Below the pieces are notes generated by a model that saw only the letters and a program-made list of their open reading frames with translations, had not been told where the DNA came from and searched no databases. A DNA stretch of 64,000 nt from Azotosporobacter soli. Lineage in GTDB: Bacteria; Bacillota; Negativicutes; SG130. A program made the translations under genes and the position numbers. Location of the stretch: positions 124,001 through 188,000 of the forward strand of contig NZ_JAUAOA010000001.1 of the NCBI RefSeq assembly GCF_030542965.1, in the 5' to 3' direction. Below are positions 39,046-46,492 of the stretch, in pieces. Every line of letters starts with the position of its first letter. Positions within the stretch are counted from its first letter, which is position 1.

Positions 39046-40104
39046 CTATGCATCGCGCTTCACGCCTTTATAGATCACCTGCCCGTCTTGCGACTGGAAA
39101 TAAGCGCCGACAAGTTCCGGAACGCCGCTTTCGAGCAACGCCATCATCGCTCTTTTTCTCGCTCCGCCGCTGACGCGCTTGGCGGTCGCTTGCGCCTCAA
39201 CGAACGCGTTATACGCCAAAAGACGGCCTTTCGTATCCATCACCGTGATCCCGTCCATATTGAACATTTCTAAAACCACGTCGATCAAGCCGTAGAATTT
39301 TTCGTCCATATATATATCCGTTATATCCTTAAGCAACGCCAATGCAATTGTTGAAATGTCGATCGGTTCCGGAAGCCAGATGCCGTCTTCGAGTATCGTA
39401 AGCGGCATCTGCGTATCCGCTTTTACAACTGCGCAAAGCGTTCCATGCACCTGCGCGACTGAGAGTTTGAAGATCTTATCAAAGACCCTGCACAAAATTT
39501 CCTTGTCACGAAGGTCTTTGATGCCGCTGACGATATCCTCTACCGCCGCGCCTATCACATCTTCCATTCTGGAGTTTTCGCTTCCGCACAGCCTGAAGTC
39601 AATGATCATTTCCCTTTTGAAGCCTTTGAATTTCAACTCAAAGTCGCTGAGAACCTCGATGCAGACGGCCGCGACATCTTCTTGCGCCGCATCCTCCGAA
39701 CGGAACAGAGAATCTGTTACACAATCGCCCATCGGGCCGCTGAAGAAACGGAAGATTCCATAGCCCACACTTTCCCCTTCCACATCGATGTATACATGCC
39801 ATCCGCTACGGCAGAAAGGGATCAGCGATTTTAAGTTCTTTTCAAAATGAAGTTCCCCGACTCTCACTTTTTTGATCGGCACTATATAGGCGTTGCTGAT
39901 CCGTTCCACGATCCTGGATTTGATCAGATTCCTGCTCAACACGATCCTCGGTTTAATTCTCCGCCCCTCTTCTTCATAACTACAGGCGCGCGACAGAAAA
40001 GAGAAAAACTGATCCGCCCATGGCGTGATGCAGACAATCCCTTCCGCGGTCAAAAAATCTGTAATCGTTTCCTGGCCGGACGAAAACACATATCTTTGCA
40101 CCAT
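39046..40104 (-). CDS. Uncharacterised protein with DisA/DAC-like C-terminal domain
   Basis: A protein of 352 residues from the chosen ATG. The C-terminal 150 residues resemble the diadenylate cyclase fold: MDGITVMDTKGRLLAYNAFV followed by GGARKRAMMALLES and YFQSQDGQVIYKGV. In true cyclases the motifs are DGA and RHR; here they read DGI and RKR, so catalysis is doubtful and a nucleotide-sensing role (as proposed for DACNV-type domains) is more likely. The N-terminal 200 residues are not recognised. GGGAG precedes the ATG at 40104; a start at 40242 after AAAGGAGG is possible but too close to that site. It is a single gene with no evident partner. Confidence 0.6.
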   Translation of the reverse strand: MVQRYVFSSGQETITDFLTAEGIVCITPWADQFFSFLSRACSYEEEGRRIKPRIVLSRNLIKSRIVERISNAYIVPIKKVRVGELHFEKNLKSLIPFCRSGWHVYIDVEGESVGYGIFRFFSGPMGDCVTDSLFRSEDAAQEDVAAVCIEVLSDFELKFKGFKREMIIDFRLCGSENSRMEDVIGAAVEDIVSGIKDLRDKEILCRVFDKIFKLSVAQVHGTLCAVVKADTQMPLTILEDGIWLPEPIDISTIALALLKDITDIYMDEKFYGLIDVVLEMFNMDGITVMDTKGRLLAYNAFVEAQATAKRVSGGARKRAMMALLESGVPELVGAYFQSQDGQVIYKGVKRDA

Positions 40105-40287
40105 CTTGCACACTCTCCCTGTTTTTTCACTTCGCTTTCCCCCGGCGCTTACAAATTTTTCATCCGGTGACGGCATGGGATACAGCGCATTTTTTTCTTT
40201 TATCTTATCATAACCGAGTAAATAGCAAAGCGCAAAGAACATCGCCTCCTTTCACGCGGATAAGAAAAAGCTCCATTAGCTGCGACA

Positions 40288-41745: not shown

Positions 41746-42180
41746 TCAGTCCTCTAAATTCCTTTCCTTGTAAAATTGGTTGATTTTCAGACTTGTAATT
41801 TCATCTAGCTTGTTTTCAAGGTTAATTATTTCTTCCCAAATTTCATCCGCCCTGCATTGATTATTTAAAGTCTTACTTTCCTCGAATAATTTGATTAGAG
41901 ATTTCTTAATCTCTATTTCTTCGGGCCAATCACCAGAAACTATCCTTGTATCATTATCTGGAGAATACATTATTAGATACTTCTTAAAGTTAGCTCTTGC
42001 TTCTGTTAAGGAATATCTTTGATTAGGTCCGCCATATACTCTATCAGCATCTCTATCAGTCTGGCCATCATCTTCCCAATGACATAAGCCGCAAATATCC
42101 CATTGCGGCATTTGAGGGTGCATTCTTTTCGGTAATGTAAGATAGCCACAACAAGGACAACAGTCTCTAGAATTTGTCAT
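41746..42180 (-). CDS. CPCC-family cysteine-rich protein, possible immunity protein
   Basis: A 144-residue protein whose first 45 residues match the CPCC domain: CCPCCGYLTL, then WDICGLCHWEDDGQ, a likely zinc site, followed by GGPNQRYSLTEARANFKKY. CPCC proteins are common in the immunity gene arrays of polymorphic toxin systems, though their function is untested. The gene is markedly AT-rich against its neighbours, as is the next one upstream, suggesting acquisition together. No toxin gene is present. Confidence 0.75.
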   Translation of the reverse strand: MTNSRDCCPCCGYLTLPKRMHPQMPQWDICGLCHWEDDGQTDRDADRVYGGPNQRYSLTEARANFKKYLIMYSPDNDTRIVSGDWPEEIEIKKSLIKLFEESKTLNNQCRADEIWEEIINLENKLDEITSLKINQFYKERNLED

Positions 42181-42279
42181 TTCAGTTCTCCATTATTTTA
42201 ATGTTAAACTATTCCTGAATATATTCTGCTAAATTAGAAATAGCCATAATAGTCTTTTCTTTGTTTCCTGAAGCCCTAA

Positions 42280-42708
42280 TTATTCTAACAGTTTAGTTTT
42301 CAAAGTCTCAAGATTAACTGAAAATTCTTTTTTGCAAGACTCTGACATCCACTCAAAATTTTCAAGCAAATTATTGTTAGTCAACTGAAAAATTATTGCT
42401 TTTAACTTTATTCGAAGACTATCATTTTTGCACCAAAATTCTTGACTTAACTTAGATATCTCAGCTAGTCCTTCCCCATCATATATCCCCATCGTCGGAT
42501 TTTCCAACAGTCTATTTGTAGCTTCAAACACTGCATACTTTACGATTACACCTTGCCTAATAAGCCTAGAAATATCCTCATCTTTAATTTCTTTCAATTT
42601 CTTGTTTTGCAATGCTTTAAACCAGTCCGAAAGTCCATATCCCAATTTCGAATTTAGAATCCCCCCAACAATTTCACCAACTGTAGAATTTCTCATATTT
42701 TCATTCAT
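42280..42708 (-). CDS. CdiI-like immunity protein (contact-dependent inhibition type)
   Basis: A 142-residue AT-rich protein. The run KALQNKKLKEIKDEDISRLI, then IRQGVIVKYAVFEATNRLLENP and YDGEGL followed by EFW, fits the pattern of CdiI-type contact-dependent inhibition immunity proteins (leucine-rich start, KPLSEFTVEDLRxxIxQG, LExNP, GDLL, W). The match is by pattern memory and needs a profile search. It neighbours the CPCC gene at 100 bases, and no cognate CdiA, WXG or Rhs toxin is seen in the window, so it is an orphan antidote. Confidence 0.65.
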   Translation of the reverse strand: MNENMRNSTVGEIVGGILNSKLGYGLSDWFKALQNKKLKEIKDEDISRLIRQGVIVKYAVFEATNRLLENPTMGIYDGEGLAEISKLSQEFWCKNDSLRIKLKAIIFQLTNNNLLENFEWMSESCKKEFSVNLETLKTKLLE

Positions 42709-45165: not shown

Positions 45166-45212
45166 AAAGAGGCCGGGAAGATTTCATACACTTTGAAATC
45201 TTCCCGGCCTCT
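45166..45212. terminator. Long bidirectional terminator
   Basis: AAGAGGCCGGGAAGATTTC pairs with GAAATCTTCCCGGCCTCTT; it ends nhaC and probably the minus-strand repeat-peptide transcript. Confidence 0.9.
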
Positions 45213-45268: not shown

Positions 45269-45583
45269 CTAGCTTTCGAGTGCCGACTCAAACGCTACGG
45301 CTTCTGCTTGCTCGCTTTTCTTACCAGGATCAACGGTCGCGAAACCTCTGCCGGGAAACGCGCAATTTTCTGCGGCAATTTTCGTCCGATCCGTTCTTGC
45401 AAAGCCCATCCCGGCCGTGCTGCAATCTTGTATCGCATGCTTAGTCTCCTGCTCGTTCACCGCAAAACCACGCGGCGGCAAACCACAACTTTCCGCTGCG
45501 ATTTTTATCCCATCAGTACGGGCAAACCCTTGGCCCGCCGTACTGCAATCCAGTATCCCGTTTTCATTCTTTTTCTCATTCAT
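45269..45583 (-). CDS. Repeat peptide with four Cys-x5-GFA units (104 aa)
   Basis: A 104-residue protein of a pattern I do not recognise. Two 41-residue repeats start at residues 12 and 53. Each splits into two about 20-residue units of the form C-x5-GFA-x2-[DE]: DCSTAGQGFARTD, SCGLPPRGFAVNE, DCSTAGMGFARTD and NCAFPGRGFATVD, with cysteines at 13, 33, 54 and 74. There is no signal peptide; the N-terminal 11 residues are charged (MNEKKNENG) and the tail is acidic. GAGGAGG precedes the ATG at nine bases. It lies 62 bases after the peroxiredoxin gene with no promoter between, so the two are probably one transcript. It may be a multi-core peptide precursor or a thiol/metal-binding protein. No modifying enzyme is nearby. 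Confidence 0.7.
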   Translation of the reverse strand: MNEKKNENGILDCSTAGQGFARTDGIKIAAESCGLPPRGFAVNEQETKHAIQDCSTAGMGFARTDRTKIAAENCAFPGRGFATVDPGKKSEQAEAVAFESALES

Positions 45584-45645
45584 CTTTTTATTCCTCCTCA
45601 TTTCTTTTTTTCGCTTTTCTACGCTTTGATGCTTTCACGCATAAA

Positions 45646-46182
45646 TCAGATCGTTTTTTCACCGGCCTGCCAGTCGATCGGGCACAAACCGCCGGTCTGC
45701 AAGGCCTGCAGCACGCGTATGATCTCGCCGACGCTGCGCCCGACATTCAGGTCGCTTACCACCTGATAGCGGACAACGCCTTCGGGGTCGATGATAAAGA
45801 GACCGCGCAGCGAAATCCCTTTTTCCTCAATCAACACGCCGTAATCCTGTGCGACTTGCTTCGTGATATCGGACGCCAGCGGATAATGCAGTTCGCCGAG
45901 TCCGCCTTCTTCCTGCGACGTTTTGATCCACGCGCGATGCGAATAAACACTGTCGGTACTTACGCCGAGTACTTCCGCGCCAAGCGCTCTGAGTTCCTCG
46001 ATCCGGGAATTGAAGCCTCTGATCTCGGTCGGGCAGACAAACGTGAAGTCCAACGGATAGAAAAAGAGAATCAACCATTTTCCCTGGTAATCGCCAAGCT
46101 GCACCACGTGATCCAGCGTATCGATATTTTCCGTAGTAGTCATTGTAAAATCCGGGGCTTTTTCGCCAACTTTAGCCGTCAT
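45646..46182 (-). CDS. Typical 2-Cys peroxiredoxin (AhpC/TSA)
   Basis: A 178-residue peroxiredoxin that reduces hydrogen peroxide and organic peroxides. The peroxidatic cysteine is C50 in DFTFVCPTE, the catalytic Thr/Arg environment is present, and the resolving cysteine is C167 in GGLCPIDW. The end is short, lacking an extended YF tail, which fits resistance to overoxidation. A consensus promoter and an A/T-rich Fur/PerR-like palindrome precede it. The four-Cys repeat peptide gene follows. No AhpF is nearby. Confidence 0.93.
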   Translation of the reverse strand: MTAKVGEKAPDFTMTTTENIDTLDHVVQLGDYQGKWLILFFYPLDFTFVCPTEIRGFNSRIEELRALGAEVLGVSTDSVYSHRAWIKTSQEEGGLGELHYPLASDITKQVAQDYGVLIEEKGISLRGLFIIDPEGVVRYQVVSDLNVGRSVGEIIRVLQALQTGGLCPIDWQAGEKTI

Positions 46183-46201: not shown

Positions 46202-46222
46202 TTATAATTAATAATAATTATC
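46202..46222. promoter_or_regulatory. Fur/PerR-like operator upstream of the peroxiredoxin
   Basis: TTATAATTAATAATAATTAT, imperfectly matching the Per box (TTATAAT-N-ATTATAA) and Fur half-sites (GATAAT on the minus strand), just downstream of the promoter. Confidence 0.5.
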
Positions 46223-46239
46223 GTTTAGTATTTTTTCTT

Positions 46240-46268
46240 ATATTAACCTCAATGCAAAAACTTGTCAA
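46240..46268 (-). promoter_or_regulatory. Sigma-A promoter of the peroxiredoxin gene
   Basis: Minus strand TTGACA (46263-46268), 17 bases, TAATAT (46240-46245). Confidence 0.75.
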
Positions 46269-46304
46269 GCGAAAACGCTTTTATTTTTTTACAAAGAAAA
46301 AGAA

Positions 46305-46341
46305 GCTGCCTCAAAATAGATCATAACTATTTTGAGACAGC
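46305..46341. terminator. Orphan hairpin of the GTCTCA family
   Basis: GCTGCCTCAAAATA pairs with TATTTTGAGACAGC. It lies between two gene starts (peroxiredoxin minus, hypothetical plus), so no gene ends at it. The 310-base gap 46183-46492 holds this, the peroxiredoxin promoter and operator, and the unknown promoter of the next gene. Confidence 0.65.
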
Positions 46342-46492
46342 CCCTAAACCTTTTCAAACAGCATTACAGTTTACTATAGGAAATAGTGGTCTGTAATGCA
46401 ATGGAACAAAAAGACAGTTCTATGCTGACAGGATTAATTTAACATACGTTGAATTTATCTTAGCACTGGGAGATTGAAGGGATAGCGCTGCT

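Follow-up and report, generated by a model that had tools for sequence, protein, structure and literature searches.

A conserved repeat protein with paired cysteines, a probable member of a PerR-type peroxide regulon in Azotosporobacter soli

Azotosporobacter soli encodes a small repeat protein, here called Cys-GFA, whose gene lies directly 3' of a 2-Cys peroxiredoxin gene on the same strand. Its membership of a PerR-type peroxide regulon is well supported by comparison of upstream sequences in the host and its relatives. In several anaerobic bacteria the gene lies next to one for an enzyme that destroys peroxide and follows a PerR-type switch, so that Cys-GFA most probably belongs to oxidative-stress defence as a new component and is not the precursor of a peptide antibiotic. 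It is proposed, with a probability of about one half, that Cys-GFA is a peroxide-inducible cytoplasmic dithiol protein of this regulon that works with the peroxiredoxin, the thiol chemistry being the conjectural part of the proposal. What appears to be new is the Cys-GFA family, an undescribed component, and the PerR-type regulon to which it would belong is one already known.

The window, which is the whole stretch of 64,000 nucleotides that was analysed, carries the Cys-GFA gene on the minus strand at positions 45269..45583. An earlier note on this DNA, from which the strand was absent, had described at these coordinates a protein of two 41-residue repeats and four units, and all of these particulars proved exact. 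The 104-aa protein contains the units C-x5-GFA-x2-[DE] as C13-STAGQ-GFA-RT-D, C33-GLPPR-GFA-VN-E, C54-STAGM-GFA-RT-D and C74-AFPGR-GFA-TV-D, with a repeat period of 41 residues. Direct reading of the sequence showed a strong ribosome site (TGAGGAGGAATAAAAAGATG) with AGGAGG 9 nt 5' of the ATG. An alternative, longer frame of 110 aa begins at 45601; the start was placed at 45583 because the ribosome site and the homologues fit that position. The opinion that this was a likely real gene, based on the ribosome site, was borne out by that site, by relatives in 13 other genomes and by the dN/dS values given below.

When all members of the family were cut into modules, the unit was found to be a stretch of about 35 residues, C-S-T-A-G-x-G-F-A-R-T-x(7)-E-x-C-x-x-P-x-x-G-F-A-x-T-D, in which the second cysteine follows the first by 20 residues (21 in one case). 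The unit is more aptly described as a C-x19-C module with two cysteines than as a single-cysteine unit, each 41-residue repeat of the host protein being one such module. The number of units varies, as the earlier note had predicted, but it does so by two-cysteine modules: one in G051 and G044:C8, two in most members and three in G056 and G066 (G numbers denote the genomes compared, G000 being the host). Both cysteines are kept, at a spacing of 20 or 21, in 32 of the 33 modules. The sole exception is module 1 of G042, from which both are gone (C to G and C to Y), and module 2 of the same protein keeps both. The joint loss in this single case suggests that within a module both thiols function together. 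The GFART residues are conserved to the same degree as the cysteines, and in a tree of modules with few resolved forks, N-terminal modules tend to group together, as do C-terminal ones. Among the homologues, the third module in the Pelosinus genome G066 (L045:5968-6430) is out of frame with the first two, owing to a frameshift or an assembly error, and G044 carries a second, shortened copy with one intact and one truncated module (L051:6014-6211), which is possibly a decaying paralogue. Two Pelosinus-type genomes each carry a divergent paralogue of 63 aa with a single module (L070:1486-1677 and L072:1498-1689); both paralogues keep the same cysteine pair, and no PerR-type box was found near either of them.

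The earlier note had also stated that the protein was not of a family known to it, and searches of Pfam, NCBIfam, PHROGs and PDB sequences with the protein or its alignment gave no significant match; moreover, literature searches turned up no description of it. Homologues, which the note had proposed to look for, do exist. Among 381 genomes of the class, a profile of eleven members detected the family in 14, host included, which represent six families and eight genera; E values in the 13 other genomes (Pelosinus, Propionispora, Anaerospora and others) came down to about 1e-47 (7e-47 with this profile), and whole-genome searches also gave strong relatives. Six Cys-GFA loci came out of a motif scan over 84,980 species genomes; they belong to Pelosinus, Propionispora, Anaerospora and an uncultured Selenomonadales. 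In a 399-genome sample of the phylum, the host was the only genome with a match, and therefore the family seems to be limited to one class. No relatives were found in viral contigs and plasmids. The dN/dS was about 0.14 between G005 and G044 (0.022/0.153) and about 0.17 between G027 and G009 (0.042/0.240), and values of about 0.1-0.2 point clearly to purifying selection on the Cys-GFA genes.

The peroxiredoxin and operator context of the gene was missed in the earlier note. A PerR/Fur-type operator (AAACGATAATTATTATTAATT, palindrome CGATAATTATTATTA) is located on the minus strand at 46206..46226, 41 bases before the peroxiredoxin start; it scores 23.9 with a matrix built from 13 sites, all of other genes, and is the only site scoring 12 or more in the window. 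A pattern search of the host genome for GATAATNATTATY gave five sites in all, against one in the reversed control. Four of these precede the peroxiredoxin/Cys-GFA pair, ferritin, a rubrerythrin-like gene divergent from thiol peroxidase (Tpx) and another rubrerythrin, and the fifth, at the dxs start, is probably due to chance. In G027, G042 and G056, A/T-centred sites precede the genes for AhpC, rubrerythrin, Tpx, ferritin, superoxide dismutase, cytochrome bd oxidase and a Fur-family regulator, among others, and the host counterpart of that regulator (G000:C4, 143 aa) is closest to the solved PerR of B. subtilis (2fe3, E 2e-27). PerR boxes resemble Fur boxes; this one was assigned to PerR because of its companion genes and because a box stands before the PerR-like gene itself. 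In the host, an operator thus precedes the unit, the same operator precedes peroxide-defence genes, and a PerR-like regulator is encoded. As a separate observation, rubrerythrin-like and thiol peroxidase genes diverge around one PerR-type box both in the host and in a Pelosinus-type genome (L106:927-2097 and L131:608-1834). In the relatives, symmetric G/C-centred boxes (GATAATSATTATC) precede FeoA-like and other apparently iron-related genes (L111, L113, L118, L120, L127 and L133), whereas the boxes at peroxide genes are A/T-centred, a contrast that may set Fur sites apart from PerR sites in sequence.

With peroxiredoxin starts corrected, the matrix score was 13.9-24 before the transcription unit in 10 of the 16 Cys-GFA genes, and the other six have no box directly before their unit. 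Across about 151 control upstream regions, the best independent control scored 13.8 and one gene was counted with a box; three higher-scoring "controls" were neighbours or overlapping frames sharing the Cys-GFA boxes. Furthermore, the solo Cys-GFA genes of G027, G009, G042 and G045 each have a box of their own. Since solo copies have boxes and independent controls score lower, the operator argument is independent of adjacency to the peroxiredoxin. The same operator evidence weighs against the reading of Cys-GFA as a constituent of spores in those members of the class that form them. That reading would accord with the finding of spoIVA in all 13 relatives except G066, which gave no match among those listed, but the operator and the neighbours indicate peroxide defence, and the host genome, which is 98.5% complete, is without a SpoIVA match and yet keeps Cys-GFA. 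The spore-gene reading was rejected because of this absence in the host, and it is considered very improbable.

The neighbouring gene (45646..46182, minus strand) encodes a typical 2-Cys peroxiredoxin of 178 aa (Prx1/AhpC1 class; PF00578, E 2e-42) with both the peroxidatic (FVCPTE) and the resolving (GLCPIDW) cysteine; its closest solved structures are of the Prx1/Prx2 type (E 6e-58), and Cys-GFA itself has no sequence relation to this class. A promoter-like site, TTGACA-17-TAATAT (46240..46268, minus strand, 10 of 12 matches), precedes the peroxiredoxin gene, and a terminator-like hairpin of 19 pairs with a T tail (46301..46345, minus strand) lies 5' of this promoter and separates the unit from the preceding DNA, both features being consensus matches only. 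Downstream, a probable terminator (AGAGGCCGGGAAGATTTCA..., 45168..45212, no strand assigned), with a 19-bp hairpin, a 7-nt loop and a short T run, was missed by the terminator scan and read directly from the sequence; it is probably common to the Cys-GFA unit and a convergent Na+/H+ antiporter gene.

Close orthologues of this peroxiredoxin (74-80% identity) were present in 13 of the 24 genomes searched, ten of which also hold Cys-GFA, and in eight of these ten the two genes adjoin. Their order varies, with the peroxiredoxin first in G000, G017 and G032 and Cys-GFA first in five Pelosinus-type genomes (G005, G044, G056, G061 and G066). Cys-GFA is not an obligate partner of the peroxiredoxin, because three genomes have the orthologous peroxiredoxin alone (G036, G064 and G071, the last only 85% complete) and four have Cys-GFA alone. 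When 15 homologous loci were compared with the window, no other neighbour recurred across genera.

This comparison also bears on one half of the earlier note's description, a "multi-core peptide precursor or small metal/thiol protein". A multi-core ribosomally made and modified peptide precursor would be small, with repeats of variable number and a charged N-terminus, as Cys-GFA is. The note had seen no modifying enzyme nearby, which holds for the window, where no maturase, protease or exporter was recognised, and the search for maturases that it had proposed for the homologues came out negative as well, none being recognised among the near neighbours of the 15 loci and no such gene recurring there. 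Moreover, no arrangement of leader and variable core was found: the start of the protein is short and unconserved, and the modules are highly conserved and nearly identical. PerR-type control also speaks against a peptide precursor, which is thus only a slight possibility. The precursor part of the description is not supported, no maturase having been recognised in the window or among the neighbours of the 15 loci and no distinct leader being present, and its thiol part is supported by the conserved cysteines, the link to the peroxiredoxin and the PerR-type operator.

The preferred reading, a dithiol protein of the peroxide regulon, would operate as follows. In the window, Cys-GFA would be the second gene of the peroxiredoxin operon, presumably co-transcribed with the first; when peroxide inactivates the PerR repressor, which is predicted to bind the operator, both the peroxiredoxin and Cys-GFA would be made. 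The product would be a cytoplasmic, probably flexible protein of two-cysteine modules, in which both thiols of a module may act jointly and cycle between dithiol and disulfide. It might take oxidising equivalents from the peroxiredoxin, give electrons to it or guard other thiols, and the conserved GFART and GFA-TD stretches may be the docking sequence. AlphaFold, working from only 15 sequences, found no fold for the protein (pLDDT 51.5, pTM 0.10), so that the disulfides receive no support from geometry; this low-confidence result fits a flexible peptide and proves nothing. In a narrower version, which is possible but doubtful, the C-x19-C modules would be disordered dithiol units, each docking on the adjacent 2-Cys peroxiredoxin to serve it alone as electron donor or redox relay, and a module of this kind would be a peroxiredoxin partner that lacks both the thioredoxin fold and the CxxC motif.

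The predicted disorder, the variable module number (1-3) and the conservation of the motif beyond the cysteines would also suit a multivalent docking scaffold, in which the repeated short motifs bind and cluster a partner, such as a peroxiredoxin decamer, and the cysteines are structural. However, such a scaffold would not account for cysteines that are almost invariant and were lost as a pair, and the neighbouring peroxiredoxin is missing in four genomes; a scaffold is rather unlikely. Alternatively, the cysteines and conserved acidic residues might be ligands for iron, zinc or heme and withhold it from Fenton chemistry under peroxide stress. Iron storage is among the functions of PerR regulons, and ferritin has the same box here; some members carry extra linker cysteines (ASCGCGPTDC in G027, ACCQGC in G045); and a PDB profile scan gave a weak resemblance to C2H2 zinc fingers. 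That match was not significant (E 0.05), however, and the host protein has neither CxC or CxxC clusters nor histidine pairs; its cysteine density is low (4 in 104), and its GFART residues are no less conserved than the cysteines. A metal-handling peptide is possible but doubtful. Metallothioneins and other cysteine-rich metal peptides are small proteins with repeated cysteines; Cys-GFA is like metallothioneins in these two respects and unlike them in its low cysteine density and lack of such clusters.

Thioredoxin, AhpD and glutaredoxin-like proteins are small thiol electron donors of peroxidases. Cys-GFA, as proposed here, would resemble them as the dithiol partner of a peroxidase. Unlike thioredoxin and AhpD, it contains no CxxC or other known redox motif, and neither a confidently predicted fold nor a Pfam match relates it to those proteins. 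If Cys-GFA does partner the peroxiredoxin, it would show that a disordered repeat peptide can take over the usual work of thioredoxin-like proteins. Accounts of peroxide-defence operons in strict anaerobes usually name known enzymes only, and a conserved PerR-associated repeat protein without a recognised domain would be a missing, small component of such operons. The regulon resembles those of the anaerobic Bacillota Clostridium acetobutylicum and C. difficile, in which a PerR-type repressor with its own box controls rubrerythrin, peroxidases and related genes. The parts of the literature consulted describe similar enzymes in clostridial PerR regulons and, in the rbr-perR-sor-CD0828 operon of C. 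difficile, a poorly understood gene, CD0828, that is needed for peroxide survival; no Cys-GFA protein is described there, whereas the present regulon includes this one-class family (PMC11980386).

Elsewhere on the minus strand of the window, a 398-aa open frame at 39046-40242 has no Pfam match. At 41746-42708, also on the minus strand, a Cys_rich_CPCC protein adjoins a CdiI_3 immunity-family protein, and the two are possibly an orphan immunity cluster.
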